Notes under the pieces: generated by a model | The model's database searches: none | The model's input: only the letters and a program-made list of their open reading frames with translations | Told to the model about the DNA's origin: nothing | Translations under genes and position numbers: made by a program | NCBI RefSeq assembly: GCF_000332115.1 | Contig: NC_020156.1 | Location: forward strand, 3,473,501 to 3,537,500 | Direction of reading: 5' to 3' | From: Nonlabens dokdonensis DSW-6 | GTDB taxonomy: Bacteria; Bacteroidota; Bacteroidia; Flavobacteriales; Flavobacteriaceae | Length of the DNA stretch: 64,000 nt | Part shown: positions 2,270 to 61,771 of the stretch, in pieces | Position numbering within the stretch: the first letter of the stretch is position 1 | Layout of the letters: every line of letters begins with the position of its first letter

Positions 2270-4453
2270 ATGAAAAAAATATCTACAAAAACAATTGAAG
2301 ATTTAGAATTTGATGTAGTTCTTACTCAGGCTAGTGCTTATTGCGTTACAGAAGATGGAAAAGCAGCTATTACAAAACTACAGCCTTTCACGACTAAATT
2401 CCTAATTAATAGAGAACTTGCCTATACTAATGAGTATTTATGGTCCTTTTCTAGCGAGCACAGAATCCCTAATCATGGTTTTGATGTTATAGATAAGGAG
2501 CTTCAGTTGTTAGGTATTGAAAATAGCACCTTAGAAAAAGAAAGCATTAGAAAACTAGCCGTTTTACCACGCACCGTAAATGAGCATATCAAGTTTTTTA
2601 AAAAACTACAAGAGTATTTCCCACAACTACATAAAAGACTAGAACATATTGCCTATAACGAGATCATCCCAAATCAGGTAGATGCCGTAATGGACCGTTT
2701 TGGCGAGATCAAGGATGACGCTTCTCCTCTATTAAAGAATCTTAGAAGAGAAATGAACATTGTACGAGGGCAGCTCAATGGTAGTTTTGGCCAGGCATTG
2801 AGTCATTACAGCCAGCTGGATTATCTAGATGAAATAAGAGAAAGTGTTGTAGAAAACCGCCGTGTACTAGCTGTAAAAGCTATGTATAGACGCAAGGTAA
2901 AAGGTAAAATGATGGGAAGCTCTAGGACTGGAAGCATCTCCTATATTGAACCAGAGCGTGTGTTAACGCTTTCGCGAAAGCTGTCTGAATTAGAAATTGA
3001 AGAACTAGAAGAAATACAACGAATTTTAAAAGAGCTCACAGAGTTTTTAAGAGCTTTTATTCCAGAATTTGAAGAGTACAAAGAATATTTAACGCACACC
3101 GATGTGATTGCTGCCAAAGCAAAATACGGTAGGAAAATCAAAGGATGTTTACCCATGATGGTAGATCATCAAGAGCTGGAATTAGTAGATGCTTATCATC
3201 CACTGCTTTGGGTTGCTAATAATGAGCGAGGAGAAAAAACGTATCCACAAACGATACGACTAGCGCCAGATAATCGCATTATCGTGATCTCTGGTCCTAA
3301 CGCTGGTGGTAAATCCATAACCTTAAAAACTATCGGTCTACTGCAGCTCATGATTCAAACCGGGATGCTGATACCAGTTCATGAGAAAAGTAGGATATGT
3401 ATTTTTGAACATGTATTGACAGATATTGGTGATAATCAAAGTATTGATAATCATTTGAGCACCTACAGTTACCGACTTAAAAACATGCGTGGTTTCTTAA
3501 GAATCGCAAATGATAAAACGCTGTTTTTAATTGACGAATTTGGAACAGGATCTGATCCAGAATTAGGTGGAGCGCTGGCAGAAAGTATGCTGGAAGAGCT
3601 CAACGAGCGTAAATCTTATGGCATTATTACAACCCATTATACCAACCTTAAAATGCTGGCAAATGAGTTGCCAGAAATGACTAATGCAAACATGTTGTTC
3701 GACTCCAGATCGCTAGAACCTGTCTATCAATTACAATTAGGAGAAGCTGGAAGCTCTTTTACGTTTGAAGTTGCACAAAAGAATGGTATTCCTTATTCTT
3801 TAATTAATAAAGCCAAAAAGAAAGTAGAACGAGGCAAAATACGTTTTGATAAATCTATTGCCGCTCTACAAAAAGAGCGATCCAACTTAAGACGTAATAA
3901 TGACAAGTTGCGAGATAAAGAGGTTCAAGCCACACAACGTGCAAATAAACTAGAAGATACTCAAGAAAGAGTGCATCAAAAGTTACAAGACTTTCAAGAG
4001 TTGTATGATGGTTACCAGCGTTTTATACAGTTAGGAAAGAAATTTGACAGCATTGCAGAAAACTTTGAAAACAATAAGAAAAAGAAACTTCTTGTGGACG
4101 AGTTGATGAAATTAGTCATCACTGAAAATATCAAGCGCAAGCCTAAGCAAAAGAAGAAAACTACGAATTCCAAGAAGGAAAAAGCTGTTAAAGGAAAGCA
4201 AAAACAAGTAGAAAACGAGGTGATTCAAAAAGTTCAAAAAATAAGAACCGAAAGAAAAAAGGCTAAAGTAGAAGAAGTAAAAAAAGAAGAAGAAAAGCCA
4301 CAAATACCTTTAAAAATAAATGATAAAGTACGCCTAGCCGATTCTAAGTCGGTAGGTACTATCGATAGTATAAGTAAAGGAAAAGTAACTATTAATTATG
4401 GTTTTTTCACGACTATTGCGCCCATCGAGCAATTAGAAAAAGTAGGGAAATAA
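2270..4453 (+). CDS. mutS2: MutS2-family ATPase without Smr nuclease domain
   Basis: This 727-residue MutS-family ATPase has the MutS core and lever helices (about 1-320), Walker A GPNAGGKS near residue 342, Walker B LFLIDEFGTGSDPE near 420 and a following TTHY switch motif. A long charged coiled coil (about 510-620) and a lysine-rich linker follow. The protein ends in a small KOW-like beta domain (KINDKVRLADSKSVGTIDS). The N-terminal mismatch-recognition domain of MutS is absent, so it belongs to MutS2, which acts on recombination intermediates and collided ribosomes in other bacteria. The C-terminal Smr endonuclease domain found in Bacillus MutS2 is missing. The DCC gene begins at the base after its stop. 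One palindrome copy lies in frame at 2967-2982. Confidence 0.9.
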   Translation: MKKISTKTIEDLEFDVVLTQASAYCVTEDGKAAITKLQPFTTKFLINRELAYTNEYLWSFSSEHRIPNHGFDVIDKELQLLGIENSTLEKESIRKLAVLPRTVNEHIKFFKKLQEYFPQLHKRLEHIAYNEIIPNQVDAVMDRFGEIKDDASPLLKNLRREMNIVRGQLNGSFGQALSHYSQLDYLDEIRESVVENRRVLAVKAMYRRKVKGKMMGSSRTGSISYIEPERVLTLSRKLSELEIEELEEIQRILKELTEFLRAFIPEFEEYKEYLTHTDVIAAKAKYGRKIKGCLPMMVDHQELELVDAYHPLLWVANNERGEKTYPQTIRLAPDNRIIVISGPNAGGKSITLKTIGLLQLMIQTGMLIPVHEKSRICIFEHVLTDIGDNQSIDNHLSTYSYRLKNMRGFLRIANDKTLFLIDEFGTGSDPELGGALAESMLEELNERKSYGIITTHYTNLKMLANELPEMTNANMLFDSRSLEPVYQLQLGEAGSSFTFEVAQKNGIPYSLINKAKKKVERGKIRFDKSIAALQKERSNLRRNNDKLRDKEVQATQRANKLEDTQERVHQKLQDFQELYDGYQRFIQLGKKFDSIAENFENNKKKKLLVDELMKLVITENIKRKPKQKKKTTNSKKEKAVKGKQKQVENEVIQKVQKIRTERKKAKVEEVKKEEEKPQIPLKINDKVRLADSKSVGTIDSISKGKVTINYGFFTTIAPIEQLEKVGK
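2967..2982. repeat. Palindrome copy inside mutS2
   Basis: CGCTTTCGCGAAAGCT has a 14-bp perfect core (2968-2981) plus one flanking mismatch. It is read in frame as LSRK within helical coil sequence. Confidence 0.85.
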
Positions 4454-4855
4454 ATGAATAAAGATCAAGATATCGTGTTATTTGATGGAGTTTGCAACCT
4501 TTGCAATGGCGCTGTCTTGTTCATCATAAAGCATGATAAAAAGGATCGTTTTCGTTTTGCAGCCTTAGAAAGTAAAATAGGTGAAGAGCTACTTGCTAGG
4601 CATCAAATAGACCCAACAAAGATAGATTCTATCGTATTGATTAGTGGAGATACCGCTTTCGCGAAAGCGGGAGCAGCATTACGCATCTCAAAACATTTAA
4701 GTGGTTTGTGGCCATTACTTTATGCATTTATCATTGTCCCTAAATTTATTGCTAATGCCGTATATGATTTCATTGCAAGAAACCGGTACAAATGGTTTGG
4801 AAAAAAGGAAAGTTGTATGATTCCTACGCCAGAATTGAAATCTAAATTTCTGTAA
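4454..4855 (+). CDS. DCC-family thiol-disulfide oxidoreductase (DUF393)
   Basis: The 133-residue protein opens with the family signature FDGVCNLCNG (residues 10-18), giving the DxxCxxC redox motif of the DCC family, followed by the FRFAALES stretch typical of it. The fold is thioredoxin-like; no substrate is known. The ATG follows the mutS2 stop directly (TAA at 4451-4453, ATG at 4454), so the two are co-transcribed and probably translationally coupled. Residues 67-72 (TAFAKA) are encoded by an in-frame 18-bp palindrome. Confidence 0.85.
   Translation: MNKDQDIVLFDGVCNLCNGAVLFIIKHDKKDRFRFAALESKIGEELLARHQIDPTKIDSIVLISGDTAFAKAGAALRISKHLSGLWPLLYAFIIVPKFIANAVYDFIARNRYKWFGKKESCMIPTPELKSKFL
4653..4670. 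repeat. Palindrome copy inside the DCC gene, 18 bp perfect
   Basis: CCGCTTTCGCGAAAGCGG is a perfect 18-bp palindrome, translated as AFAKA with the flanking T and G. Confidence 0.9.
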
Positions 4856-4914
4856 TTCTACACCATAGCAAACAATTAGATTTATCATAGTATATTTAAC
4901 CCAAAATATACAAA

Positions 4915-5970: not shown

Positions 5971-5980
5971 CACTAAAACC

Positions 5981-6505
5981 ATGGAAACATTAATTACTAA
6001 TTGGATACTTTTTGTAGTGCTGTTTTTGATGCTTTTAGGCGCATATATCATAGGCTTTTTCTTTGGAAACAAAAAGAAACTTTCTACTATAAATTCAAGA
6101 GTAAAAGATGTAGAAATAAAGCATAATCATAAAGAAGGAGCTATAATCATTGAAGATCACCAACCTGGAAAAATAAGAGCTACAAAAACAAGAGAACGAG
6201 CTGGAATGTTAAGTGAAAGTTCTCCATTAAATAAAGAACAACTTCCAGAGACTGAAAATCAAAATATAGATGTTGAAGTCAATCAAAATGATCCTAAAGA
6301 AAAAGATGATCTAACATTGATTGTAGGTATCAATGATGATATTCAAAATAAGCTTAGGGATTTTGGGATTCATTCGTTTTCTCAAATCTCCAAATTAAGT
6401 AGTGAAGAAATAAGAAATTTATCCAAAGAAATTGATATTTTCCCTGGTAGAATACACCGCGATGACTGGAAAGGTCAAGCGAAAGAATTGATGAGAAAGG
6501 AATAG
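5981..6505 (+). CDS. Anchored protein with C-terminal helix-hairpin-helix-like domain
   Basis: This 174-residue protein has one N-terminal membrane segment (about residues 8-28, ending FFFGNKKK), a charged cytoplasmic linker rich in Glu, Asn and Lys, and a C-terminal domain of about 60 residues (LTLIVGINDDIQNKLRDFGI ... DWKGQAKEL). That domain matches the short helix-hairpin-helix module often found at the tail of membrane or ribosome-linked proteins in Bacteroidota, where the usual pattern is GIGPKI-x-LL-x-GI. Its partner upstream faces the other side of the membrane. The two could form an envelope-spanning pair; this is inference from gene order. Confidence 0.5.
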   Translation: METLITNWILFVVLFLMLLGAYIIGFFFGNKKKLSTINSRVKDVEIKHNHKEGAIIIEDHQPGKIRATKTRERAGMLSESSPLNKEQLPETENQNIDVEVNQNDPKEKDDLTLIVGINDDIQNKLRDFGIHSFSQISKLSSEEIRNLSKEIDIFPGRIHRDDWKGQAKELMRKE

Positions 6506-6614
6506 TTTATAATTTATTTATGTGATCTAAAAGGCCTTTCTAGTGTAGTCACAGGATATTTTTAAAAACAAAAATCAATTGCAATTCTTCATCAAATTAA
6601 TGATTATAAAAAAT

Positions 6615-6657
6615 AAACGCTTGCTGTTGATTTATAATATTCCAACAGCAAACGTTT
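6615..6657 (-). terminator. Rho-independent terminator of the btuB-like gene
   Basis: A 15-bp stem with one mismatch (AAACGCTTGCTGTTG pairing with CAACAGCAAACGTTT) surrounds a 13-base AT-rich loop. Read on the minus strand it is followed by a T-rich tract and sits just after the receptor stop codon. Confidence 0.8.
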
Positions 6658-6677
6658 TAAACTTTTTAACTCCCGAT

Positions 6678-8962: not shown

Positions 8963-8978
8963 CGCTTTCGCGAAAGCG
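8963..8978. repeat. Intergenic palindrome copy near the riboswitch
   Basis: This is a perfect 16-mer CGCTTTCGCGAAAGCG, 20 bp beyond the 5' end of the riboswitch, in the divergent btuB/btuF spacer. The preceding AATTC is shared with the copy at 24062. Confidence 0.9.
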
Positions 8979-9117: not shown

Positions 9118-9124
9118 AAGGCTT

Positions 9125-16658: not shown

Positions 16659-17636
16659 TTGAATCATATCGACCTATCCATTATCATTCCTCTTCTTAAT
16701 GAGGCAGATTCTCTTCCTGAACTTCAGGAATGGATTGATCGTGTTATGAAATCTAGGAGTTTATCCTACGAAGTAATTTATATCGACGACGGTAGCACAG
16801 ATTCTAGTTGGGAGATTATAAGTTCGCTTTCGCGAAAGCGAGATACAACAAACTCACCTAACCCTATTAAAGGCATTAAGTTTCAAGCCAACTATGGTAA
16901 ATCACAAGCGCTTCATGCAGGTTTTAATCAAGCCGATGGAAACGTAGTGATCACTATGGATGCAGATTTACAAGATTCTCCAGACGAGATTCCAGAACTT
17001 TATGCAATGATTGCAGAGCAGAATTATGATCTGGTAAGCGGCTGGAAGAAAAAACGTTATGATAGTGTCATTTCAAAAAATTTACCCAGTAAGCTATTTA
17101 ATTGGGCGGCTAGAAAGACAAGTGGTGTGCAATTAAATGATTTTAATTGTGGATTAAAAGCATATAACAGTCAGGTAATCAAAAATATAGATGTCCACGG
17201 TGAAATGCACCGCTATATTCCTGTATTGGCTAAAAACGCTGGCTTCACAAAAATCACACAAAAAGAAGTCATCCATCAAGCACGTAAATATGGTACGACT
17301 AAATTTGGCTATGAGCGTTTCATAAACGGATTTCTAGACCTAATTACTATTGCTTTCATTTCAAAATATGGTAAGCGTCCTATGCATCTTTTTGGATCTT
17401 TAGGTGTGATCATGTTTCTTATAGGTTTTACAACTGCTGGATATGTAGGTGGTTCAAAACTATATAGAATGTACAACGACATTCCGTATCGTCTTGTAAC
17501 TGACAATCCATGGTTCTACATCGCATTAACGACCATGATATTAGGTACACTTTTCTTTATCGCTGGTTTCTTAGGGGAGTTGATACTGAGAAACGGTAAT
17601 CAGAAAGATCGATATAATATCTCTGAGAGAATTTAG
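16659..17636 (+). CDS. Family 2 glycosyltransferase, DPM/undecaprenyl-phosphate type
   Basis: The 325-residue enzyme starts at TTG 16659, 20 bp after a TACTTTTG box. The GT-A domain holds IIPLLNEADSLPEL, YIDDGSTDSSW, ITMDADLQDSPDEIP (DxD-like metal site) and the NCGLKAY segment; two membrane helices fill the C-terminal 90 residues. This matches transferases that load a sugar onto a polyprenyl phosphate at the inner membrane. Residues LSRKRD after DDGSTDSSWEIISS come from an in-frame palindrome lying in the variable loop after the first helix, so the enzyme core is not disturbed. Confidence 0.85.
   Translation: MNHIDLSIIIPLLNEADSLPELQEWIDRVMKSRSLSYEVIYIDDGSTDSSWEIISSLSRKRDTTNSPNPIKGIKFQANYGKSQALHAGFNQADGNVVITMDADLQDSPDEIPELYAMIAEQNYDLVSGWKKKRYDSVISKNLPSKLFNWAARKTSGVQLNDFNCGLKAYNSQVIKNIDVHGEMHRYIPVLAKNAGFTKITQKEVIHQARKYGTTKFGYERFINGFLDLITIAFISKYGKRPMHLFGSLGVIMFLIGFTTAGYVGGSKLYRMYNDIPYRLVTDNPWFYIALTTMILGTLFFIAGFLGELILRNGNQKDRYNISERI
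16824..16841. repeat. Palindrome copy inside the glycosyltransferase gene, 18 bp perfect
   Basis: TCGCTTTCGCGAAAGCGA is an 18-bp perfect palindrome read as SLSRKR, in the LSRK frame. Confidence 0.9.
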
Positions 17637-17760: not shown

Positions 17761-17802
17761 TACTTATTCCTATATTTGTGTAAGAACTTTTATAGAACAG
17801 AC

Positions 17803-19515: not shown

Positions 19516-19519
19516 ATTA

Positions 19520-21340
19520 ATGAATTATTTTAAAGAGATTCTTAAGTATGCTAAGCCCTATAAAAGCTATGCGGTTCTTAATATAATCAGTAATGTTTTT
19601 TATGCACTTTTTGGTGCGCTAAGTTTTGTTTCCTTAATTCCCATGCTCGATGTTCTTTTTGATAAGACTCAAGCAGTTAATGTTGCACCAGCCTGGGAAG
19701 GAATCAACAACACCATGGATTACATAAAAGGATATTTAGGTTATTACATCACCACTCAAACTGATGGAAAAGAACAGGCTTTAATCATTGTAATCGCTCT
19801 CGTGTTAATTTTATTTTTTCTCAAAAATCTATTTGGTTATTTAGGAATGTATTTTATCGCCTACCTAAGAAATGGTGTTCTTAGAGACATACGCGATGAT
19901 TTATTTAAAAAGATAGTACACCTACCTATTTCTTTCTTCTCTGAGAAACGTAAAGGAGATGTGATTGCTAGAACTAGTGCTGATGTATTACAAATTCAAA
20001 ATAGCTTTTTGTCCATATTAGAGTTGATCATAAAAGAGCCTTTAAACATCATTTTTACACTAGCCATAATGCTAGTAATGAGTGCAAAGCTTACTATCTT
20101 CATGCTTATCTTCTTACCTATTTCAGGATTTTTAATTTCTCGATTAGGTAAAAAGCTCAAAAAGCGTAGTGGCCAGGTTCAAAAAGAGCAAGGCTATTTT
20201 CTATCCCTATTAGAAGAGACATTGAGTGGCTTGAAGGTTATTAAAGGTTTTAATGCAGAAGATCGTTTGACAGAGAGTTTTCAAAACAGTACGAACAGAA
20301 TGTATCGTTTTGCTGTGAAATTAAATCATCGTAAAGGTTTTGCCAGTCCTGTAAGTGAGTTTTTAGGTATTTTAGTTATAGGAATTCTGTTATGGTTTGG
20401 TGGTCGTTTAGTATTGATTGAGGAATCAATTGATCCTACAACATTCATAGGATTCATGGTACTTGCTTATAATATATTAACTCCTGCAAAGGCACTTTCT
20501 AAGGCGAGTTATCAAATTAAAGAAGGTAATGCGAGTGCTGAGCGTGTTCTAGAAATACTCCATACGAAGAACGAAATTGAAGATAAAAAGGGTGCTATTG
20601 CTGTTCTCGCTTTCGCGAAAGCGATACAAGTCAACAATGTTACTTTTTCTTATGAAGAAGAACCTGTTTTAAAGAACTTCTCCTTAGATATTCCAAAAGG
20701 AACCAGTGTTGCGTTAGTAGGACAAAGTGGTTCTGGAAAAAGTACGATTGCAAATTTACTCACCAGGTTCTACGACGTTGAGAATGGAACTATTACGATA
20801 GATGGTACTAATATAAAAGATGTCACGCTCCAAAGTTTACGTGATCAAATGGCGCTTGTGACACAAGATTCTATTCTTTTTAACGATACGATCGCTACAA
20901 ACGTGGCGTTGAGTGATAAAACTGCAAGCGAAGAACAAATCGTAGACGCATTAAAAATTGCTAACGCTTGGGAATTTGTAAAAGATCTTCCTAAAGGGAT
21001 TCATACTAACATAGGTGATAGTGGTGGAAAATTAAGCGGTGGACAAAAGCAACGTCTATCTATTGCTCGTGCGGTTCTTAAAAACGCTCCTATATTAATT
21101 CTAGACGAGGCAACCAGCGCACTAGATACAGAAAGTGAACGTCTAGTACAAGATGCGCTAGAAAAAGTAATGAAGAACAGAACTTCCATTATTATAGCTC
21201 ACCGACTGAGTACCATTCAGAATGCAGATCATATCGTAGTCATGAAAAAAGGAGAGATCGTAGAGCAAGGAACACATACAGATTTGTTAGCAAAAGAAGG
21301 TCTGTATCATGGACTTGTAGGGATGCAGAGTCTGGCTTAA
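19520..21340 (+). CDS. ABC exporter, fused membrane and ATPase domains (MsbA-like)
   Basis: The start is taken as ATG 19520 (MNYFKEILK), 4 bp after the mutase stop; the upstream in-frame ATG lies inside the mutase gene. The 606 residues comprise six membrane helices (about 20-330) and a C-terminal ATPase with Walker A GQSGSGKST near 400, signature LSGGQKQR near 505, Walker B ILILDEATSALD near 524 and H-loop AHRLST. This is a homodimeric half-exporter of the MsbA/LmrA class; lipid or peptide cargo cannot be told from sequence. A palindrome encodes LAFAKA at the junction between the two domains. Confidence 0.88.
   Translation: MNYFKEILKYAKPYKSYAVLNIISNVFYALFGALSFVSLIPMLDVLFDKTQAVNVAPAWEGINNTMDYIKGYLGYYITTQTDGKEQALIIVIALVLILFFLKNLFGYLGMYFIAYLRNGVLRDIRDDLFKKIVHLPISFFSEKRKGDVIARTSADVLQIQNSFLSILELIIKEPLNIIFTLAIMLVMSAKLTIFMLIFLPISGFLISRLGKKLKKRSGQVQKEQGYFLSLLEETLSGLKVIKGFNAEDRLTESFQNSTNRMYRFAVKLNHRKGFASPVSEFLGILVIGILLWFGGRLVLIEESIDPTTFIGFMVLAYNILTPAKALSKASYQIKEGNASAERVLEILHTKNEIEDKKGAIAVLAFAKAIQVNNVTFSYEEEPVLKNFSLDIPKGTSVALVGQSGSGKSTIANLLTRFYDVENGTITIDGTNIKDVTLQSLRDQMALVTQDSILFNDTIATNVALSDKTASEEQIVDALKIANAWEFVKDLPKGIHTNIGDSGGKLSGGQKQRLSIARAVLKNAPILILDEATSALDTESERLVQDALEKVMKNRTSIIIAHRLSTIQNADHIVVMKKGEIVEQGTHTDLLAKEGLYHGLVGMQSLA
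20607..20624. repeat. Palindrome copy inside the ABC exporter gene, 18 bp perfect
   Basis: TCGCTTTCGCGAAAGCGA is a perfect 18-bp palindrome, read as AFAKA in the linker just before the ATPase domain. Confidence 0.9.
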
Positions 21341-24061: not shown

Positions 24062-24077
24062 CGCTTTCGCGAAAGCG
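24062..24077. repeat. Intergenic palindrome copy before the RluA-type gene
   Basis: This is a perfect 16-mer CGCTTTCGCGAAAGCG between the divergent kinase and pseudouridine synthase genes, preceded by AATTC as at 8963. Confidence 0.9.
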
Positions 24078-25912: not shown

Positions 25913-27370
25913 ATGTCTTCAGAAATTTCTTGGTTGCTATTCTTATTATTAGGTGTTGTCATAGGTGCTGTTGTGGCATGGTTTTTTGCTAAAACTCGTT
26001 TCTCTGGAAGTTTAAACCTATTAGAATCTGAAAAAAGTCAGTTGAATGCACAGCTTTCTCAATTGCAACCTGCTATTGAAGAACGTGATAAATTACGTCA
26101 TGAAAACAGTCAGTACAGCGCGCAATTAGAGCAAAGAATAGAAAGTAATCAGGAGTTGAGTGCCCGATTACAAAAGCTGGACAAAGAATATCGAGATGTC
26201 GCTATTGAGAAAGAAAACCTAAATGTGTTACTGGCTGAGCAACGTACCGCTTTCGCGAAAGCGGAAGAAAAACATACTGAAGCCCAAGGAGAGATCGAGA
26301 AATTAAACGAAAAATTCACCAAAGAGTTTGAAAATCTCGCTAACAAAATCCTAGACGAGAAAAGCACCAAATTTACCGATCAAAACAAGAAAAACATCGA
26401 GCAGATTTTAAGCCCGCTGCAGGATAAAATCAAAAGTTTTGAAAAGCGCGTAGAAGATACTCACAAAGATACTATCGATAGGCAAAGTGCTTTGAGACAG
26501 CAAATTATAGGACTGAAAGAAATGAACCAGCAAATGAGTAAGGAAACAACTAACCTTACCAAAGCCTTGAAAGGAGATGCTAAAATGCGTGGTAATTGGG
26601 GTGAGCTAGTTCTAGAGCGCGTTCTTGAAAAATCTGGATTGACTAAAGGCTCTGAATATGAAGTCCAGCAAACGATTAAAACTGATGAAGGAAAAACCTT
26701 GTTTCCTGACGTGGTGATCAATCTGCCTGGCGGCAAGAAAATGGTTATCGATTCTAAGGTATCACTTAATGCTTATGAACGATTTATCAATGAAGAAGAT
26801 GACTCCTTACAAGAACGATATTTAAAAGAACACGTTGCTTCACTTAAAAAACACGTCTCAGATTTATCCGGTAAAAGTTATCATGATTATCAAATCGACA
26901 GCCCTGATTTTGTTTTGCTTTTTGTGCCTATAGAACCAGCTTTTGCCATGGCTTTAAATCACGATAGCAATTTATATAGTGATGCATTTGACAAGAATAT
27001 AGTAATTGTTACACCTACTACGCTATTGGCAACATTACGCACCATTGATACCATGTGGCAAAATGAAAAACAACAAAAAAACGCATTAGATATTGCGACT
27101 GCAGCTGGTGCATTATACGATAAGTTTGTAGGACTGACTGAAGATTTAATCAAAGTTGGTTCTCAACTGGATACGGTAAAAAAATCTTATTCTTCTAGCA
27201 TGAACAAGCTTACTGAAGGTTCTGGAAATTTAGTAGGACGCATCGAGCGATTAAAAAGACTAGGTGCCAAAGCAAATAAATCTCTAAATGAAAAGCTTGT
27301 AAATCGTGCTATAGATAGCGATCCTGACTTTTTAGAGGCCAGCGATGAAGAAGGTAGGTTGAATTTGTAG
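25913..27370 (+). CDS. rmuC: DNA recombination protein RmuC
   Basis: The 485-residue protein has an N-terminal membrane anchor (about 5-26), a coiled coil (about 35-200) and the RmuC nuclease-like domain (about 210-420) with MRGNWGELVLERVLE, FPDVVINLPGGKKMVIDSKVSL and the FVPIEPAFAMAL segment. RmuC limits inversions between short inverted repeats in E. coli and has a restriction-endonuclease-like core. An 18-bp palindrome encodes TAFAKA in the coiled coil. The stop codon at 27368-27370 is immediately followed by an octamer tandem array. Confidence 0.9.
   Translation: MSSEISWLLFLLLGVVIGAVVAWFFAKTRFSGSLNLLESEKSQLNAQLSQLQPAIEERDKLRHENSQYSAQLEQRIESNQELSARLQKLDKEYRDVAIEKENLNVLLAEQRTAFAKAEEKHTEAQGEIEKLNEKFTKEFENLANKILDEKSTKFTDQNKKNIEQILSPLQDKIKSFEKRVEDTHKDTIDRQSALRQQIIGLKEMNQQMSKETTNLTKALKGDAKMRGNWGELVLERVLEKSGLTKGSEYEVQQTIKTDEGKTLFPDVVINLPGGKKMVIDSKVSLNAYERFINEEDDSLQERYLKEHVASLKKHVSDLSGKSYHDYQIDSPDFVLLFVPIEPAFAMALNHDSNLYSDAFDKNIVIVTPTTLLATLRTIDTMWQNEKQQKNALDIATAAGALYDKFVGLTEDLIKVGSQLDTVKKSYSSSMNKLTEGSGNLVGRIERLKRLGAKANKSLNEKLVNRAIDSDPDFLEASDEEGRLNL
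26247..26264. repeat. Palindrome copy inside rmuC, 18 bp perfect
   Basis: CCGCTTTCGCGAAAGCGG is a perfect 18-bp palindrome read as AFAKA in the coiled-coil region. Confidence 0.9.
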
Positions 27371-27472
27371 TTGTTAGGTTGTTAGGTTGTTAGGTTGTTA
27401 GGTTGTTAGGTTGTTAGGTTGTTAGGTTGTTAGGTTGTTAGGTTGTTAGGTTGTTAGGTTGTTAGGTTGTTA
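27371..27472. repeat. Perfect tandem array of the octamer TTGTTAGG, 12.75 copies
   Basis: The array begins at the base after the rmuC stop codon and runs 102 bp with no substitution. The unit is strand-asymmetric (no C on the plus strand). Perfect identity suggests recent expansion by slippage. It is noncoding in context. Confidence 0.97.
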
Positions 27473-29434: not shown

Positions 29435-29500
29435 TTCTCGCTTTCTATTTTATTTCTAAATAGAAGTTTATCATGAGGTAGCTCAGGGCGAAAGCGAGAA
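29435..29500. repeat. Palindrome copy split by a 42-bp insert
   Basis: TTCTCGCTTTC (29435-29445) and GCGAAAGCGAGAA (29488-29500) would join into a 24-bp perfect palindrome of the dispersed family. Exactly at its centre lie 42 bp of unrelated AT-rich sequence. Confidence 0.75.
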
Positions 29501-32897: not shown

Positions 32898-32915
32898 CCG
32901 CTTTCGCGAAAGCGG
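32898..32915. repeat. Intergenic palindrome copy, 18 bp perfect
   Basis: CCGCTTTCGCGAAAGCGG lies between two converging genes, 22 bp before the stop of the DUF5777 gene, where it may also act as a bidirectional hairpin in RNA. Confidence 0.9.
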
Positions 32916-37572: not shown

Positions 37573-37588
37573 CGCTTTCGCGAAAGTG
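37573..37588. repeat. Intergenic palindrome copy, right arm degraded
   Basis: CGCTTTCGCGAAAGTG retains a perfect 12-bp core and lies 35 bp upstream of the serine hydrolase start. Confidence 0.8.
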
Positions 37589-39737: not shown

Positions 39738-42590
39738 TTACTTACTCAAATACATTCTACGTCTCGAATACAAATCGTAAAACGCATCGTCTTTTAAACT
39801 ATCTATAAATAAAATACTTTCTCCAGTAGATTTCATTTCTGGCCCTAGACGTTTATCAACGTTAGGGAATTTGTTAAATGAAAATACCGGTTGCTTGATG
39901 GCATAACCGTCTAACTTAGGGTTAAAGTCAAAATCTGTTACTTTATTATGACCTAACATTATTTTAGTAGCATAGTTCACATAAGGTTCACCGTAAGCTT
40001 TTGCGATAAAAGGAACCGTACGCGACGCACGCGGATTTGCCTCAATAATATAAACTTTATCGTCCTTCACGGCAAACTGGATATTAATTAATCCTACTGT
40101 TTCTAAGGCAAGAGCAATTCTTTTAGTGTGATCCTTTATTTGTTGCATCACCAAATCACCTAATGTAAACGGTGGTAACAAAGCATTGGAATCTCCAGAG
40201 TGAACACCGCAAGGCTCAATATGCTCCATTATCCCTATGATGTAAACATTCTCTCCATCACAAATAGCGTCAGCCTCTGCTTCTATCGCTCCATCGAGAT
40301 AATGATCAAGAAGTAGTACATTATTAGGTATTTTCCTTAGAATATCTACCACATGCTCTTCTAACTCATCTTTATTAATCACGATTTTCATTCCTTGCCC
40401 ACCTAAAACATAAGAAGGTCTTACAAGAATAGGAAAGTCTAATTTATCTGCGGCGGCAAGAGCTTCTGCTGGTGTTGTCGCAGTAGCAAATTCTGGATAA
40501 GGGATATTATTTTCTTGTAACATTCTAGAAAACTCTCCTCTATCTTCTGCAAGATCCAGCGCTTTGTAGCTGGTTCCCATAATTTTTATTCCATAGCGAT
40601 CAAGTTTTTCCGCAAGCTTTAATGCCGTCTGACCACCTAATTGAACGATTACTCCTTCTGGCTTTTCATGACGTATGATGTCATAAATATGTTCCCAGAA
40701 AACTGGCTCGAAATACAATTTATCTGCCGTATCAAAATCAGTTGAAACTGTTTCTGGATTACAATTGATCATGATGGTTTCATAACCACATTCTTGCGCC
40801 GCATAAACTCCATGCACACAACAGTAATCAAATTCAATCCCTTGACCTATCCTATTAGGACCAGATCCTAAAACAATTACTTTCTTTTTATCAGAAACGA
40901 TGCTCTCATTCTGAACGTGGCGCTTCCCATCTGCTGTTTCAATATCTGCTTCAAAAGTGGAATAATAATAAGGTGTGTTTGCAGTAAATTCTGCTGCACA
41001 AGTATCAACGAGTTTATAAACTCGATTTACGTTCATTTCCTCACGTAAGTTATACACTTCTGACTCCAGACATCCTAGCATATGCGCGATTTGACGATCT
41101 GCAAATCCCTTTTGTTTAGCTTCTAGTAGTAGCTTTCGCGAAAGCGTGCCTACATCATACTTCTCTATCTCTTTTTCTAGCAAGAAGAGTTCTTCAAACT
41201 GTTTCAAGTACCACATGTCTATTTTAGTGATATCGTGGATACGGTTTAACGAGATTCCCATTGCAACCGCATCATACAAGGCAAAGACACGATCCCAACT
41301 TGCGTTAGTAAGCTTTTCAATTACCTGATTGTAATCGGTATAACCTTTCCCATCTGCGCCTAGACCATTGCGCTTTATTTCCAAAGATTGAGTTGCTTTA
41401 TGCAGTGCTTCTTGGAAAGAACGACCTATTCCCATAACCTCTCCTACAGCTTTCATCTGAAGACCTAAAGTACGGTCAGACCCTTCAAATTTATCAAAAT
41501 TCCATCGAGGGATTTTAACAATTACATAGTCTAATGTAGGTTCAAAAAGTGCAGACGTATTTCCAGTAATTTGATTATTTAACTCATCAAGCGTATAACC
41601 TAGAGCTAATTTAGTGGCTACTTTTGCAATTGGGTAACCGGTTGCTTTACTCGCTAAGGCAGAAGATCGAGATACACGAGGATTGATTTCAATCGCTATA
41701 ATATCTTCTTTTTCGTCGGGACTTACGGCAAATTGTACATTACAACCACCTTCAAATTCTCCTATACTACGCATCATATGAATGGCCATATCGCGCATTT
41801 TTTGAAAGGTGCGATCTGACAATGTCATTGCTGGAGCTACTGTTATGGAATCTCCTGTATGGATTCCCATAGGATCCATATTTTCTATAGTACAAATGAT
41901 TACGACATTATCATTTTTATCACGAAGCAATTCTAACTCATATTCTTTCCAGCCTAATAATGCTTTGTCAATCATAACTTCATGAATGGGAGAAACCTCA
42001 AGACCCAAAGTCAGTAACTCGTCATAGTCTTCTTCTTTATGAACAATGGCTGCTCCAGCACCACCGAGTGTAAATGAAGAACGTATACATAAAGGAAAAC
42101 CAAATTCTTGAGCAATTTCTTTACCCTTCAAGAACGAAGTAGCTGTAGCTTGAGGAGCCATTCCTACTCCTATTTTACCCATTAGTTCTCTGAATTTTTC
42201 TCTATCCTCAGTAATATTGATAGCGTCTATATCTACTCCTATTAAATCAACATTATGATCTTGCCATATTCCTTTTTCTTGAGCTTCAATACATAGATTT
42301 AATGCCGTCTGTCCACCCATGGTAGGTAAAACCGCATCAATTTGAGGATGCTCTGAAAGGATTTCCCTTAAGGAGTTTGTGGTAAGAGGTAAAAGGTACA
42401 CATGATCTGCCATGCTAGGATCTGTCATGATCGTTGCTGGATTAGAATTGATTAAGATGGTTTCAATTCCTTCTTCTCTTAATGATCTTAATGATTGTGA
42501 GCCAGCATAATCAAATTCACATGCTTGACCGATTATAATAGGTCCACTACCGATTAATAATACGGATTTGAGGTCTTTTCTTTTTGGCAT
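39738..42590 (-). CDS. carB: Carbamoyl-phosphate synthase large subunit, without regulatory MGS domain
   Basis: The 950-residue enzyme has the duplicated architecture of CarB: carboxyphosphate half with LLIGSGPIIIGQACEFDYAG and an ATP-grasp (about 125-330), the oligomerisation region (400-545), and carbamoyl-phosphate half with VLGSGPNRIGQGIEFDYCC and a second ATP-grasp (about 675-860). It makes carbamoyl phosphate from glutamine-derived ammonia, bicarbonate and two ATP for arginine and pyrimidines. E. coli CarB is about 1073 residues; the missing 120 residues are the C-terminal allosteric domain that binds UMP, IMP and ornithine. carA is not adjacent. A palindrome encodes TLSRKL at about residues 482-487. 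Confidence 0.95.
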   Translation of the reverse strand: MPKRKDLKSVLLIGSGPIIIGQACEFDYAGSQSLRSLREEGIETILINSNPATIMTDPSMADHVYLLPLTTNSLREILSEHPQIDAVLPTMGGQTALNLCIEAQEKGIWQDHNVDLIGVDIDAINITEDREKFRELMGKIGVGMAPQATATSFLKGKEIAQEFGFPLCIRSSFTLGGAGAAIVHKEEDYDELLTLGLEVSPIHEVMIDKALLGWKEYELELLRDKNDNVVIICTIENMDPMGIHTGDSITVAPAMTLSDRTFQKMRDMAIHMMRSIGEFEGGCNVQFAVSPDEKEDIIAIEINPRVSRSSALASKATGYPIAKVATKLALGYTLDELNNQITGNTSALFEPTLDYVIVKIPRWNFDKFEGSDRTLGLQMKAVGEVMGIGRSFQEALHKATQSLEIKRNGLGADGKGYTDYNQVIEKLTNASWDRVFALYDAVAMGISLNRIHDITKIDMWYLKQFEELFLLEKEIEKYDVGTLSRKLLLEAKQKGFADRQIAHMLGCLESEVYNLREEMNVNRVYKLVDTCAAEFTANTPYYYSTFEADIETADGKRHVQNESIVSDKKKVIVLGSGPNRIGQGIEFDYCCVHGVYAAQECGYETIMINCNPETVSTDFDTADKLYFEPVFWEHIYDIIRHEKPEGVIVQLGGQTALKLAEKLDRYGIKIMGTSYKALDLAEDRGEFSRMLQENNIPYPEFATATTPAEALAAADKLDFPILVRPSYVLGGQGMKIVINKDELEEHVVDILRKIPNNVLLLDHYLDGAIEAEADAICDGENVYIIGIMEHIEPCGVHSGDSNALLPPFTLGDLVMQQIKDHTKRIALALETVGLINIQFAVKDDKVYIIEANPRASRTVPFIAKAYGEPYVNYATKIMLGHNKVTDFDFNPKLDGYAIKQPVFSFNKFPNVDKRLGPEMKSTGESILFIDSLKDDAFYDLYSRRRMYLSK
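41132..41145. repeat. Palindrome copy inside carB
   Basis: GCTTTCGCGAAAGC is a 14-bp perfect palindrome read on the minus strand as LSRK, in the middle of the oligomerisation region. Confidence 0.9.
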
Positions 42591-47783: not shown

Positions 47784-48650
47784 ATGCCCATAGCAAATTC
47801 AGAATTAATCATAAATCCAGATGGAAGTATTTACCATCTAAATTTGAAGCCATATCAACTAGCCCAGACCATTATCACTGTAGGAGATCCTGAGCGTGTG
47901 AAGGAGATTTCAAAACACTTTGATGTTATAGAGCTCAAAGTAGGAAAAAGAGAATTCCATACACATACTGGAATTTATAAAAATAAACGCATCAGTGTTA
48001 TTTCTACTGGAATTGGTACCGATAATATCGATATTGTTTTCAATGAGTTAGATGCATTGGTCAATGTAGATTTTAACACGAGAGAAGTTAAAAAAGAGCT
48101 TACCCAACTTGATATTGTTAGAGTGGGAACAAGTGGTGCTGTTCAAAGTGATATTCCTGTAGATAGCTTTTTATTGTCTCAACGAGGTATCGGTTTTGAC
48201 AGTTTGATGCACTGGTATGATAGTGATGGTGGTGATCTCGCTTTCGCGAAAGCGGTATCTCAACAAATAAAAAGATCAAATGTTCATGCTGCACCTTATG
48301 TAGTTTCCTGCAACAAAGACTTAGCAAAGAAATTCCAAACCATAGAAATGCAAAATGGTAATACCATAACAAACGTAGGATTCTATGGACCTCAAAGTCG
48401 CAAAATACGATTAGAACCAGCAGAAAAAGATCTCAATTCACAAATTGCAGATTTCAACTATGAAGGAAGCAAAATAACAAACCTGGAAATGGAAACCGCT
48501 GGTATTTACGCCATGGCTTCTCTTTTAGGCCATAGAGCAGTATCACTCAATGCAATTTTGGCAAATAGAGCAACCGGTGAGTTTTCTGATAAACCGAAGG
48601 ATACAGTCGAGAAATTAATCAAGTTCACGTTGGACTGTCTAGTTGCATAA
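47784..48650 (+). CDS. Nucleoside phosphorylase (uridine-phosphorylase type)
   Basis: The 288-residue enzyme has the PNP/UDP family motifs: ITVGDPERVKEIS near residue 31, ISTGIGTDNIDI near 73, VRVGTSGAVQ near 113 and the ribose-binding NLEMETAGIYAMASLLG near 233. It cleaves uridine or a related nucleoside with phosphate in the salvage pathway. Residues LAFAKAVS near 151-158 derive from an in-frame palindrome, in a helix before KRSNVHAAPY. Confidence 0.87.
   Translation: MPIANSELIINPDGSIYHLNLKPYQLAQTIITVGDPERVKEISKHFDVIELKVGKREFHTHTGIYKNKRISVISTGIGTDNIDIVFNELDALVNVDFNTREVKKELTQLDIVRVGTSGAVQSDIPVDSFLLSQRGIGFDSLMHWYDSDGGDLAFAKAVSQQIKRSNVHAAPYVVSCNKDLAKKFQTIEMQNGNTITNVGFYGPQSRKIRLEPAEKDLNSQIADFNYEGSKITNLEMETAGIYAMASLLGHRAVSLNAILANRATGEFSDKPKDTVEKLIKFTLDCLVA
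48239..48254. repeat. Palindrome copy inside the nucleoside phosphorylase gene
   Basis: This is a perfect 16-mer CGCTTTCGCGAAAGCG read as AFAKA. Confidence 0.9.
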
Positions 48651-51648: not shown

Positions 51649-52530
51649 ATGGATAAAAAAACAACCATAAAAATAGGTGGTGTACCAGAGCACTTTAACT
51701 TGCCATGGCACTTAGCTCTTGAGGATGACGCTTTCGCGAAAGCGGGAATAGACCTACAATGGGAAGACATTCCAGAGGGAACTGGTCGCATGAGCAAACT
51801 CCTACGAGAAGAAAAACTAGATGTAGCTTGCATATTAACTGATGGAATAGTGAAGGACATCATTGCTGGCAATAAATCTCGTATTCTTCAAGTTTATGTC
51901 TCCTCTCCTTTACTTTGGGGCGTTCATGCACCAGGGAAAATAGAAGCAGATCGCACAGAGCAGCTAGAAGATGGTAAAATTGCCATAAGCCGATACGGAA
52001 GTGGTTCTCATTTAATGAGTTATCTATTAGCCAAAAAACATGGCTGGGAAACAGAAGAGATTGAATTTGAGTTGATCAACACGCTTGACGGCGCAGTTGA
52101 GGCGTTGAGTAATAATAAAGCGCAACTTTTCCTATGGGAACGTTATATGACACAACCCATAGTAGATCAAGGTGTTTTCAAAAGATTAGAAACTATTGCA
52201 ACGCCATGGCCTAGTTTTGTAATTGCTGCTACTGAGAGTTGTATCAAAGAAAAAGAAGAAGCACTTTCAAAAATGCTGTACATCATCAACACCTACACTG
52301 CAGATTTTAAAAACATACCTAGCATAGACAGAACGATTGCTTCTCATTACGATCTTCAAGTAGGAGATGTACAACAGTGGTTGCTGCGCACAGAATTTAG
52401 TGATGACCAGCTCTGGAAAAGCACGGTAGATACCATTCTAGAAGAATTTACGGCAGTAGGAATTATAGAAAAACAAGTAGCTTTAGAGGATTTGATTTAT
52501 GATTTACCTAAATTTGGTGAGGAAGAATAA
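51649..52530 (+). CDS. Cytosolic NMT1/SsuA-like substrate-binding-fold protein
   Basis: The 293-residue protein has the type II periplasmic-binding fold of the NMT1/THI5/SsuA class: IKIGGVPEHFNLPWHLALED, WEDIPEGTGRMSKLLREEKLDVACILTDG, and KIAISRYGSGSHLMSYLLAKKHGW. There is no signal peptide or lipobox and no ABC transporter gene nearby, so it should work in the cytoplasm, either as an enzyme of this fold (such as those in thiamine or menaquinone pathways) or as a sensor. A palindrome encodes DAFAKAG at residues 27-33, in the first helix. Confidence 0.7.
   Translation: MDKKTTIKIGGVPEHFNLPWHLALEDDAFAKAGIDLQWEDIPEGTGRMSKLLREEKLDVACILTDGIVKDIIAGNKSRILQVYVSSPLLWGVHAPGKIEADRTEQLEDGKIAISRYGSGSHLMSYLLAKKHGWETEEIEFELINTLDGAVEALSNNKAQLFLWERYMTQPIVDQGVFKRLETIATPWPSFVIAATESCIKEKEEALSKMLYIINTYTADFKNIPSIDRTIASHYDLQVGDVQQWLLRTEFSDDQLWKSTVDTILEEFTAVGIIEKQVALEDLIYDLPKFGEEE
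51729..51744. repeat. Palindrome copy inside the substrate-binding-fold gene
   Basis: This is a perfect 16-mer CGCTTTCGCGAAAGCG read as AFAKA near the N-terminus. Confidence 0.9.
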
Positions 52531-56751: not shown

Positions 56752-56777
56752 GTTTCCGCTTTCGCGAAAGCGGAAAC
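56752..56777. repeat. Intergenic palindrome, longest copy (26 bp perfect)
   Basis: The palindrome spans 56752-56777 without mismatch, with the 16-mer core extended by GTTTC on the left and its complement on the right. It sits immediately upstream of the -7 box of the radical SAM gene, covering the region where the -33 box would be. Confidence 0.95.
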
Positions 56778-56796: not shown

Positions 56797-56812
56797 CAGC
56801 TCACATTTATTC

Positions 56813-59014: not shown

Positions 59015-59326
59015 TCCCTTAAATAACAGTTTGAATATGTGGTATTTACATCTTATTAAAAAATGATTTTTATTTTTTTAAGAAAAAATTTGGATTTAGG
59101 CTGGAGTACGTTACATTTATCCAAGGTTTATACTTAATAATTCTGAATACATTAGCTCGCATATCATCTATTTCTACAACTGTTTGTACAACAGCTACTT
59201 TTAAGTGGAATACAGCTGCCACAAGTAATACCCTTTTGGGTTACTAGCTATTTAATTCCGTCCGTATGATGCAGTTTATCGCATCCTTTTCAAAATAAAA
59301 TTTTCAATTCTTAAAGCTTTTCAATT
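59015..59326 (+). promoter_or_regulatory. thr operon leader region
   Basis: The promoter is TTG (59090-59092), 19 bp, TACATTTA (59112-59119). A frame then runs to TAG at 59245-59247 and encodes a Thr-rich stretch (ISTTVCTTATFKWNTAATS; nine Thr among the last 33 codons). No ATG, GTG or TTG start is present in this frame after the promoter. A GTAA-CCC/GGG-TTAC hairpin (59227-59244) lies at the end of the frame, and GATGC/GCATC followed by CTTTTC (59268-59291) could be a weak terminator. The layout resembles attenuation by threonine. Confidence 0.5.
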
Positions 59327-61771
59327 ATGAAAGTCTTAAAATTCGGTGGTACTTCTGTAGGAAGTGCTCAAAACATAAATCGTGTTATATCAATAGTTGA
59401 AGAATTATCTTCAAATCATCAAATCATTTGTGTTGTAAGCGCTGTAGGTGGCATCACTGATCAATTGCAACAAACGGGACAGTTAGCACAACTAGGTGAC
59501 ACTTCGTATCTAGATATTCTTGCTGATATAGAAAAAAAGCACTTTCAACTACTAGATGAATTAATCCCAGTAAACTCTTATCAAGTAAAAACAGCTTTAG
59601 AAGAAAAACTTAAACACCTCAAAAGTTTACTCAGTGGAATTTACTTGATCAATGAATTGTCACCTAAGACTCTTGATAAATTATTGAGTTTTGGTGAGCA
59701 GCTTTCTTCATTCATTATCAGTGAAACCTTAATCGTTAGAAATCTTGACGCTTCACTTAAAAATACTCAAGACTTAATCCTTACAGACGAAAACTTCATT
59801 AAAGCTCATGTTTTCATAAGAGAAAGTAACGAGAATATTACTAATTACTTTAGATCATCCAAACATAAGATTACCATTTTGCCTGGTTTTGTAGCGCGCT
59901 CTCATAATGGGAATAGCACTACTTTAGGTCGCGGCGGTTCTGATTATACAGCAGCTTTGGTGGCAGCAGCTTTGAAAAGTAAAGAATTAGAGATTTGGAC
60001 AGATGTAAGTGGCATGTACACAGCAAACCCTAAACTGGTAAAACAAGCTTACCCTATTGAACAAATCAATTATCAAGAAGCGATGGAGTTATCGCATTTT
60101 GGTGCAAAGGTTTTGTATCCACCATCCATACAGCCCGTTCTAGAACTGAAGATTCCGATTGTTATTAAAAACACCCTACAACCACAAGATAAAGGAACCT
60201 ACATTTCTTCAAATGCCTATCAATCTGGTCAGAGTGCCACTGGAATAAGCAATATTGATAACATTGCATTATTGACGCTACAAGGATCTGGAATGGTAGG
60301 AATTCCTGGTTTTTCTAAGCGATTATTTGAGCAGTTAGCATTAGATAAAATCAATGTTATACTAATTACCCAGGCATCTTCTGAGCATTCTATTTGTATA
60401 GCCATTGATCAAACCGATATCGCAAAAGCAGAAAGCGGAATCAATCACATGTTTTCCTATGAAATAGAACAAAAGAAATTGAATCCTGTTCTGGTAGAAA
60501 ACGACCTAGCGATCATTGCCTTAGTAGGAAGCAATATGAAGCATTTGCAAGGTATGAGTGGTAAAATGTTCGGTGCTTTAGGAAGAAATAATATCAATAT
60601 TGTTGCCATTGCACAAGGTTCTTCAGAAATTAACATCAGTGCTGTGATTGATCAAAAAGATGTCAAAAAAGGACTGAACACACTTCATGAGCGTTTCTTT
60701 GAGGGCAACCATAAACAAGTTAATTTGTTTATTGCAGGAGTAGGAAATGTAGGAGAAAAACTTATCGCTCAAATCCGACAACAGCGTAAATACCTAAAAG
60801 AAAAACTAAAATTAAATCTCAGAATAATAGGTGTTTCCAATTCTAGAAAAATGTATTTTAATTCTGATGGAATCGATCCTAAAACTTGGAAAGAAGGACT
60901 TCAAAATGGTGAAAATGCTAGTCTTGAGGGCTTTTATGATAGAGCCGTAGAGCTTAATTTACGTAACAGCGTTTTTGTAGATGTTACTGCTAGTGCAGCT
61001 GTAGCACAGCAATATGAACATTATTTAAAAGAAAGTATCGCTGTAGTAGCTTGTAATAAAATCGCTTGTTCTGCTGCTCTTGAAAATTACCAAAAACTTA
61101 AAAACTATTCCTTAAAATACAACGCTCCATTTTTATTTGAAACTAATGTGGGCGCTGGTTTACCCATTATTGATACATTACAAAATCTTATTTCTTCTGG
61201 AGATAAAATTGTTTCTATTCAAGCTGTTTTATCTGGTAGTCTCAATTTTGTGTTCAACAACTTTACAAATGAGACTAAATTTCATGACATCGTAAAACAA
61301 GCGCAAGAACAAGGTTTTACAGAGCCAGATCCTCGTATTGATTTGAGTGGTGTAGATGTAGCAAGAAAGATTTTGATTCTCGCCAGAGAAAGCGGTCTTG
61401 CCATGAATTTGAAAGATATTAAAAACAATTCTTTCCTTACTGATAAGAATAACGCCAGCGACACCGTAGATGATTTTTACCGCACACTGTTAGAAGATGA
61501 GCAGCATTTTCAGTCTTTGTACGCTTCCGCGAAAGCGAAACAACAACAACTCAAATACGTAGCAACACTAACTGAAAATGAAGCCAGCGTAGGTTTACAA
61601 GAAATTCCCGTAGGTCATCCTTTTTACAACCTAAAAGGAAGCGATAACATCGTTATGTTTTATACAGCGAGATATCCTGAGCAACCGCTAATTGTAAAAG
61701 GTGCCGGTGCAGGAGCAGATGTTACAGCATCAGGATTATTTGCAGATATCATAAGAATAGGAAATAACTAA
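59327..61771 (+). CDS. thrA: Bifunctional aspartokinase / homoserine dehydrogenase
   Basis: The 814-residue protein has an aspartokinase domain (KFGGTSVGSAQNI at the start, GRGGSDYTAAL near 203, WTDVSGMYTANP), two ACT regions (about 310-455), and a homoserine dehydrogenase with the nucleotide motif FIAGVGNVGEK near 467, and the ETNVGAGLPIIDT segment near 605. It carries out the first and third steps from aspartate to threonine. It heads the thrABC operon and lies behind the leader. A one-base-variant palindrome (YASAKAK) is near residue 735. Confidence 0.95.
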   Translation: MKVLKFGGTSVGSAQNINRVISIVEELSSNHQIICVVSAVGGITDQLQQTGQLAQLGDTSYLDILADIEKKHFQLLDELIPVNSYQVKTALEEKLKHLKSLLSGIYLINELSPKTLDKLLSFGEQLSSFIISETLIVRNLDASLKNTQDLILTDENFIKAHVFIRESNENITNYFRSSKHKITILPGFVARSHNGNSTTLGRGGSDYTAALVAAALKSKELEIWTDVSGMYTANPKLVKQAYPIEQINYQEAMELSHFGAKVLYPPSIQPVLELKIPIVIKNTLQPQDKGTYISSNAYQSGQSATGISNIDNIALLTLQGSGMVGIPGFSKRLFEQLALDKINVILITQASSEHSICIAIDQTDIAKAESGINHMFSYEIEQKKLNPVLVENDLAIIALVGSNMKHLQGMSGKMFGALGRNNINIVAIAQGSSEINISAVIDQKDVKKGLNTLHERFFEGNHKQVNLFIAGVGNVGEKLIAQIRQQRKYLKEKLKLNLRIIGVSNSRKMYFNSDGIDPKTWKEGLQNGENASLEGFYDRAVELNLRNSVFVDVTASAAVAQQYEHYLKESIAVVACNKIACSAALENYQKLKNYSLKYNAPFLFETNVGAGLPIIDTLQNLISSGDKIVSIQAVLSGSLNFVFNNFTNETKFHDIVKQAQEQGFTEPDPRIDLSGVDVARKILILARESGLAMNLKDIKNNSFLTDKNNASDTVDDFYRTLLEDEQHFQSLYASAKAKQQQLKYVATLTENEASVGLQEIPVGHPFYNLKGSDNIVMFYTARYPEQPLIVKGAGAGADVTASGLFADIIRIGNN
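61522..61537. repeat. Palindrome copy inside thrA, one-base variant
   Basis: CGCTTCCGCGAAAGCG differs from the consensus by one T-to-C change, giving ASAKA in place of AFAKA. Confidence 0.75.

Follow-up and report, generated by a model that had tools for sequence, protein, structure and literature searches.

The question raised by a 64,000-nucleotide stretch of the Nonlabens dokdonensis DSW-6 chromosome (positions 3473501-3537500 of a single 3,914,632-base contig, hereafter the window) is why one short palindrome, with the 10-bp core TTTCGCGAAA, should recur all along it. An earlier note on the window had listed 14 perfect cores, nine within genes and five between them, and had judged that such a 10-mer should occur well under once in 64 kb. 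All 14 are found at the coordinates that it gave, mechanically called open reading frames (ORFs) divide them in the same way, with nine inside and five outside, and 100 dinucleotide-preserving shuffles returned a mean of 0.16 copies and a maximum of 2. The full 16-mer CGCTTTCGCGAAAGCG is present at ten of the 14 sites. Palindrome lengths run from 12 to 28 bp, so that of the range of 12 to 26 bp put forward earlier the lower end stands and the upper end does not, and the one-base variant and the split copy that had been noted alongside are both real, the variant with its 12-mer at 61524. Three features were absent from that first account, namely an even spacing, arms through which the site reaches about 50 bp, and a scarcity of half-sites. 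The answer that these features bring to the fore, and that we consider to be on balance probable, is that each copy is a putative binding site of one symmetric DNA-binding protein, required in cis at intervals of a few kilobases and maintained by selection.

A count over the whole genome had been proposed as the check on the window, and there the 10-mer occurs 893 times against 10 for the reversed control, which is clearly nowhere near background. For this genome, the statistics on arms, half-sites and context were drawn from a 12% sample (464 kb) together with the listed site positions, and those on spacing from 98 intervals in the first 523 kb (with a single 91-kb interval removed) plus 13 in the window. 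The 111 intervals have a mean of 4339 bp and a coefficient of variation (CV) of 0.45, and 2.7% of them are shorter than 1 kb where 20.6% would be expected. Twenty 20-kb stretches spread round the chromosome hold three to seven sites each, with no confinement to, or exclusion from, an origin or terminus domain of the sort that marks macrodomain sites of the matS, Noc or SlmA type. The variance-to-mean ratio of such counts is 0.27 here, 0.27 in nine stretches of a second Nonlabens genome (G199) and 0.28 in seven of G227, a member of genus g206. The CV of the spacing is 0.68 in G190, a genome from outside Nonlabens (99 intervals), and 0.76 in G199, yet the local variation in the latter is 0.46 on a scale where random equals 1 (91 intervals). 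Taken with the constant density and with the turnover of single sites described below, the regular spacing suggests action in cis over a few kilobases.

Very close pairs do occur, two in this genome (11364/11473 and 493080/493353), two in G199 and one in G190. An autoregulated binder gene lying beside such pairs was considered as a candidate and rejected, as the neighbouring ORFs look unrelated between genomes when the starts of their translations are compared by eye. Between 131.7 and 222.9 kb (L016-L020) the genome has no 10-mer at all across some 91 kb. This region (131-224 kb) encodes giant non-ribosomal peptide synthetase (NRPS) genes, a penicillin-amidase-like gene and a CmlA-like hydroxylase, and was probably acquired.

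The site itself is considerably longer than its core, which is flanked on each side by a G-poor arm of about 17 bp with A preferred at every third base. Among 104 sites in this genome the complete 12-mer is found in 102, the 14-mer in 96 and the 16-mer in 80. From +9 to about +26 G is scarce on both strands (2-5% at +11 to +14 and 16% by +21, with a background of 17.6%), whilst C is tolerated and A reaches maxima at +11, +14, +17 and +20; at +9 and +10 themselves, where the bases vary by species, G is not avoided in this genome (45% and 28%). The arms lie on both sides of coding and non-coding sites irrespective of gene strand, and they are found likewise in G199 (64 sites) and G227 (42) and weakly in G190 (54). 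At the 12 frame-0 sites of this genome the upstream A preference is missing and G is still low. A codon artefact was ruled out as the source of the 3-bp period, which is equally strong in non-coding halves: by phase, A has frequencies of 0.67, 0.35 and 0.42 in 130 non-coding halves (this genome and G199) and of 0.61, 0.36 and 0.36 in 214 coding halves. The tolerance of G is seemingly raised near +15, +21 and +27, which may reflect a 6-bp period in the arms.

A perfect palindrome followed on either strand by a 3' arm poor in G could also be taken for a single-strand hairpin or an RNA stem, serving as a priming site, a terminator or a rolling-circle-like signal. However, the outer core and arm positions show no compensatory change between the two sides (covariation of 6.39, compared with 6.53 +/- 0.18 for shuffled pairing), which indicates that it is the sequence that is recognised and not a hairpin. 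The G-poor arms, moreover, are present on both sides whichever strand the gene is on. In this genome 66 of 105 sites lie in ORFs and 39 lie outside ORFs of at least 90 amino acids, which cover 89% of the sequence. A set of 62 intergenic sites comprises 33 tandem, 17 divergent and 12 convergent cases, the corresponding shares of intergenic bases being 64, 23 and 13%; there is thus no strong preference for gene orientation, and only a slight excess of convergent sites. A repetitive extragenic palindromic (REP) or other hairpin or RNA element was rejected on these grounds as highly improbable.

Half of the palindrome is hardly ever found on its own. Of 211 copies of CGCGAAAG within the 464 kb, 208 belong to the palindrome, as do 185 of 190 copies of GCGAAAGCG, 185 of 194 of CGAAAGCG and 185 of 237 of the shorter GAAAGCG. 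This bears on the idea of a Chi-like signal that switches a nuclease of the RecBCD or AddAB type, the palindrome working from both directions. The half-core GAAAGCGG resembles the Staphylococcus aureus Chi, GAAGCGG, a G-poor 3' arm would suit single-strand reading, and sites are carried by phage-like contigs (see below), two of which have recombinase genes. Chi is, however, short and asymmetric, and a directional signal would allow lone half-sites, of which CGCGAAAG provides only three in 211. Chi is not pure either: in the excerpt of PMC1939737, Escherichia coli has 1008 exact copies in 4.64 Mb, a density near that of the present site, with 8855 one-mismatch forms. A Chi-like role hence seems very unlikely.

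The purity of the site can be set beside such figures. The 12-mer has 879 exact copies in this genome and 62 with one mismatch, the control giving 15 at up to one mismatch. The same excerpt reports 5648 exact and 1830 one-mismatch copies of GGCGATCGCC in Synechocystis, 438 and 947 of the uptake sequence in Actinobacillus pleuropneumoniae, and a 92- and 82-fold fall in over-representation at one mismatch in Haemophilus influenzae and Neisseria gonorrhoeae, although motif lengths and genomes differ in all these comparisons. In sampled stretches the exact and one-mismatch 12-mers number 107 and 5 in this genome, 65 and 6 in G199, 40 and 8 in G227, and 36 and 25 in G190; the sharp mismatch threshold is thus a property of Nonlabens, G190 being looser.

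How single sites come and go was followed in gene alignments, the printed rows of which were inspected. For MsbA, GCTTTCGCGAAAGC, reading AFAKA, is present in eight of the 12 Nonlabens rows (window included), and the relatives that lack it align there without gaps but with different residues. The eight site-bearing rows, which were picked for carrying the site, agree in all five of its codons, compared with identity at 24 of 316 other conserved-residue codons. GlmM carries the site in two of 12 rows and the one-mismatch form TTACGCGAAA in four species rows, again ungapped. In RmuC the site is present in four of six rows and was removed in two by a synonymous change, the alignment holding no site-free relatives from outside the genus. 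The glycosyltransferase site is found in seven of ten Nonlabens rows, and about nine printed site-free relatives have gaps of one to six residues, such that a small insertion is possible at that one site. Sites would appear to arise mostly by substitution, in place, as MsbA and GlmM both show.

These alignments bear directly on a mobile palindromic element of the rickettsial palindromic element (RPE) kind, inserted into the chromosome, which the earlier note had offered as one model. Such an element would account for the high copy number and perhaps for the gaps among the glycosyltransferases, but the MsbA and GlmM sites align without gaps to site-free orthologues, and GlmM retains one-mismatch forms. 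With a reservation for the glycosyltransferase site, which is less clear, the mobile element was rejected and is scarcely credible.

The trait is general in the genus and patchy beyond it. All 23 Nonlabens genomes examined have 319-893 copies, with controls of 4-16, the lowest genome being 78% complete. Among 199 genomes of the family the 12-mer is present in 55 and dense in three (879, 586 and 445), with 19 or fewer elsewhere. A survey with the 14-mer of 397 family genomes in 237 genera, itself a sample of a larger group, found it in 80 genomes, and three genera are dense: Nonlabens (857, 664, 609 and 578), g190 (408) and g206 (857), all other genomes having at most 19. Across 395 genomes of the phylum a copy occurs in 22, of which eight lie outside the family with a single copy each. 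No comparable palindromes were found in Aquimarina, Winogradskyella, the Gillisia group or other pools, each genome contributing about 20 kb, a weak result as these loci all surround msbA. When up to two mismatches in the 14-mer are allowed, the counts against control in 24 chosen genomes are 956/15 in N. dokdonensis, 1281/21 in G227 and 732/48 in G190. The excess is modest in G144 (86/20), G349 (74/10), G042 (69/8), G076 (41/5), G051 (39/7) and G307 (38/15), and lower or absent in the remainder. The degenerate copies in G144, G349, G042, G076 and G051 could be either what is left of a system since lost or a scatter of imports. The MsbA of N. dokdonensis DSW-6 is 95% identical to that of an N. 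dokdonensis isolate, whereas the MsbA proteins of G227 and G190 reach at most 77% and 71% identity to named rows. In a 105-row MsbA tree, the sparse genus that includes G144 is the neighbour of G227 (support 96), and G190 lies apart on a long branch; on that gene the dense trait is not one clade, a weak indication given a single gene and long branches.

In several low-count genomes some or all of the copies form short clusters. Those of G078 and G087 are in or beside matches to CusA/CzcA and heavy-metal P-type ATPases (three of five profiled proteins), and those of G101, G012 and G111 accompany ORFs that look similar by eye. Islands with site clusters, and with metal-resistance genes where profiled, were seen in several flavobacterial genera (L001-L006, L009-L011). 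A pair of sites 933 bp apart recurs in G101, G078, G087, G073, G236 and G160 and suggests that pieces of a site-dense genome have been transferred; not every copy in the low-count genomes is of this kind.

Viruses carry the site too. Searched with the 14-mer, viral contigs gave at least 120 matching stretches. Among the matches listed many are GC-rich, and several low-GC ones have a single copy, G-containing arms and seemingly one recurring gene, from which it follows that chance matches are common. Of 16 low-GC contigs, chosen mostly for multiple copies or G-poor arms, 14 have at least two 10-mers, and the density across the 16 is one per 3.8-10.3 kb in the part available. The five phage-like contigs that were profiled encode portal, head, tail and DnaB-like proteins; L246 has a terminase and an integrase-like protein and L253, a sixth contig, a serine recombinase-like protein. 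The nearest annotated relatives of two searched phage proteins belong to Cellulophaga phages (35 and 44% identity). A 25-base extended pattern was found in seven viral contigs only, all within the chosen 16. Even with two mismatches allowed, the 12-mer is absent from P12024L and P12024S, two phages that were isolated on a Persicivirga strain but today bear the name of Nonlabens phages.

It might be supposed that the site is a DNA-uptake sequence, for which a surface or periplasmic receptor prefers DNA with the site, and uptake followed by recombination spreads the copies. The species differences at +9 and +10 resemble uptake dialects, and site clusters have travelled to other genera along with transferred genes. 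The Haemophilus and Neisseria uptake sequences, as the excerpts of PMC1939737 and PMC7811141 describe them, are likewise evenly spaced, lie both within genes and between them and originate by point mutation. However, the uptake sequences of the PMC1939737 excerpt are non-palindromic, whereas CGCGAAAG is almost confined to the palindrome, and one-mismatch forms outnumber exact ones in A. pleuropneumoniae and are rare here, although the 92- and 82-fold falls in H. influenzae and N. gonorrhoeae qualify that contrast. Phage-like contigs carry sites. Furthermore, the PF00437 ATPase is above cut-off in only three of 16 dense genomes (18.8 bits, below cut-off, in N. dokdonensis), making a type IV pilus system unlikely in most of them. 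Uptake is accordingly regarded as unlikely.

A further possibility starts from HIP1 (highly iterated palindrome 1), a lineage-specific palindrome of very high copy number whose function is described as unsettled in the excerpt of PMC4390886. In a mechanism of that type a DNA methyltransferase and methyl-directed repair would together make and keep palindromes; the same excerpt has HIP palindromes accompanying methylases of inner sequences, and an inner CGCG or TCGCGA could serve as a methylase target here. Against this, the PF00145 C5 methyltransferase is missing from seven of the 16 dense genomes, including G212 with its 843 copies (the N6 and N4 families were not searched), and a strict 12-bp core, arms extending the whole to some 50 bp and regular spacing are unexpected for a short methylase target. 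The methylation origin entertained at the outset is thereby weakened, to the point of being decidedly improbable. The likeness to HIP1 itself holds as an analogy, both being palindromes with hundreds of copies in and between genes, and fails as membership, the cores being different.

What remains as the likeliest reading is a binding site. Its symmetry, the requirement for the whole site, its strictness and the lack of structural covariation together argue for a symmetric protein complex on double-stranded DNA. The protein would bind as a dimer or a higher symmetric oligomer to a two-fold symmetric site of about 50 bp, reading the strict core CTTTCGCGAAAG, the softer outer pairs and both G-poor arms, and once bound it would affect the DNA molecule that it sits on across a few kilobases. 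Selection would favour a good site roughly every 4 kb along the chromosome, with little gain from a second one nearby, and base substitution would make and remove sites whilst the density stayed constant. As to its role in the cell, our best guess is chromosome-wide organisation or maintenance, for instance the anchoring or loading of a nucleoid-structuring or sliding-clamp type of protein. This is the broad class left after the contrary tests of uptake, Chi and methylation, none of which is final. Of the ideas in the earlier note, the binding site of a chromosome-organising protein has thus survived best.

Several observations weigh against such a protein. No gene for the binder was found. 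The arms, with G avoided and C tolerated on one strand and a 3-bp A step, are unusual for an ordinary helix-turn-helix reader of duplex DNA, and their strand asymmetry might mean that one strand is melted and bound; in G190 they are only weak. Purity is lower outside Nonlabens, in G227 and G190, and the dense trait is patchy on the MsbA tree, where g206 groups with a sparse genus. The two site-free Nonlabens phages and the 91-kb NRPS region imply that the need is not absolute for all DNA in the cell. Regular spacing and turnover by substitution, finally, also fit models driven by uptake or recombination. A bolder form of the binding-site explanation, which we put forward as speculative and rather doubtful, is that a single undescribed protein system, with some 400-900 evenly placed symmetric sites of about 50 bp, organises the entire chromosome in Nonlabens and in two further flavobacterial genera. 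An oligomer, such as a sliding clamp or a filament of the RecA-like or AAA+ type, would nucleate at the palindrome and contact the arms, reading them with a 3-bp and perhaps 6-bp step and with strand asymmetry, and temperate phages would acquire sites and be handled as self.

The sites of the window are collected in the table.

Table. Copies of the palindrome in the window (window coordinates).
Feature	Position	Context
Site 1, CGCTTTCGCGAAAGCT (15/16)	2967..2982	within mutS2 ORF 2270-4453
Site 2, full 16-mer	4654..4669	within ORF 4454-4855, no NCBIfam match
Site 3, full 16-mer	8963..8978	intergenic
Site 4, full 16-mer	16825..16840	within glycosyltransferase-like ORF 16659-17636, reads LSRK
Site 5, CGCTTTCGCGAAAGAA	19065..19080	within phosphohexomutase-like ORF 17776-19515, reads AFAK
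Site 6, full 16-mer	20608..20623	within MsbA-like ORF 19487-21340, reads AFAKA
Site 7, full 16-mer	24062..24077	intergenic
Site 8, full 16-mer	26248..26263	within RmuC-like ORF 25913-27370, reads AFAKA
Site 9, full 16-mer	32899..32914	intergenic
Site 10, CGCTTTCGCGAAAGTG	37573..37588	intergenic
Site 11, AGCTTTCGCGAAAGCG	41131..41146	within carB ORF 39738-42590
Site 12, full 16-mer	48239..48254	within nucleoside phosphorylase-like ORF 47784-48650
Site 13, full 16-mer	51729..51744	within ORF 51649-52530
Site 14, full 16-mer inside 28-bp perfect palindrome	56757..56772	intergenic
One-mismatch variant CGCTTCCGCGAAAGCG	61522..61537	
Split copy, half-sites CGCTTTC and GAAAGCG with 44 bp between	29439..29496	

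Further split copies were seen at L302 12005, L306 12675 and L296 about 7330 (reverse-strand position 12666). Two, in G199, and perhaps one, in G227, contain a hairpin-like insert of about 20 bp of the CTGCCTGTCGGCAGAC type, to which the 44-bp insert of the window is unrelated; small palindromic elements may insert into sites. Directly after the RmuC-like gene, at 27370-27472 of the window, an 8-bp unit, GTTGTTAG, forms a perfect tandem array of 12.9 copies, the 10-mer of which is absent from the other sampled stretches of this genome and from the G199 sample. It is possibly a phase-variable, slippage-prone microsatellite.

In the open-licence literature that was searched, no occurrence of the 12-mer or the 14-mer was found, and the ten papers that contain the 10-mer seem unrelated, as judged by their titles and the starts of their abstracts. 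Palindromes iterated throughout a genome have been puzzling since HIP1, and the present one opens the matter to experiment: its target, being strict as well as long, suits affinity purification, the near-absence from other genera allows comparison, the regular spacing implies a cis range of a few kilobases, and the host genus is marine and culturable. Confirmation of a binder would establish a new chromosome-wide DNA-binding system in the Bacteroidota. In practice the motif can also serve to trace DNA that derives from the site-dense genera, as with the flavobacterial metal-resistance islands.

Amongst known systems, HIP1, on the periodicity of which Xu and colleagues have reportedly worked, is likewise a very high-copy, lineage-specific palindrome that is grossly over-represented genome-wide (893 against 10 here). 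It has the sequence GCGATCGC, extended to no more than 12 nt in the excerpt of PMC4390886, whereas here CGCTTTCGCGAAAGCG has an arm of about 17 bp at either side. One-mismatch forms are less frequent in this genome (62 against 879) than for the Synechocystis GGCGATCGCC (1830 against 5648), with the proviso that the motif lengths differ. Unlike HIP1, the present site is regularly spaced and its host belongs to the Bacteroidota; HIP1 is cyanobacterial and linked to methylases. The uptake signal sequences (USS) of the Pasteurellaceae and the DNA uptake sequences (DUS) of the Neisseriaceae have soft flanks and dialects. The site shares with them its even spacing, its origin by point mutation and its many copies in ORFs (66 of 105, compared with 65% in H. 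influenzae and 35% in N. gonorrhoeae in the excerpt of PMC1939737), but differs in being palindromic and symmetric, in its rarer one-mismatch forms, in its presence in phage-like contigs and in the lack of a PF00437 ATPase above cut-off in 13 of 16 dense genomes. With Chi it shares a density of about one site per 4-5 kb, although the whole palindrome is required and there is no orientation. The matS, Noc and parS sites are palindromes of 13-16 bp that are bound by dimeric chromosome proteins, those of parS and Noc having TTTC...GAAA halves, and they number tens per domain. The present site, by contrast, has some 900 copies placed evenly round the chromosome, and its TTTC-GAAA spacing differs from theirs by 2 bp.

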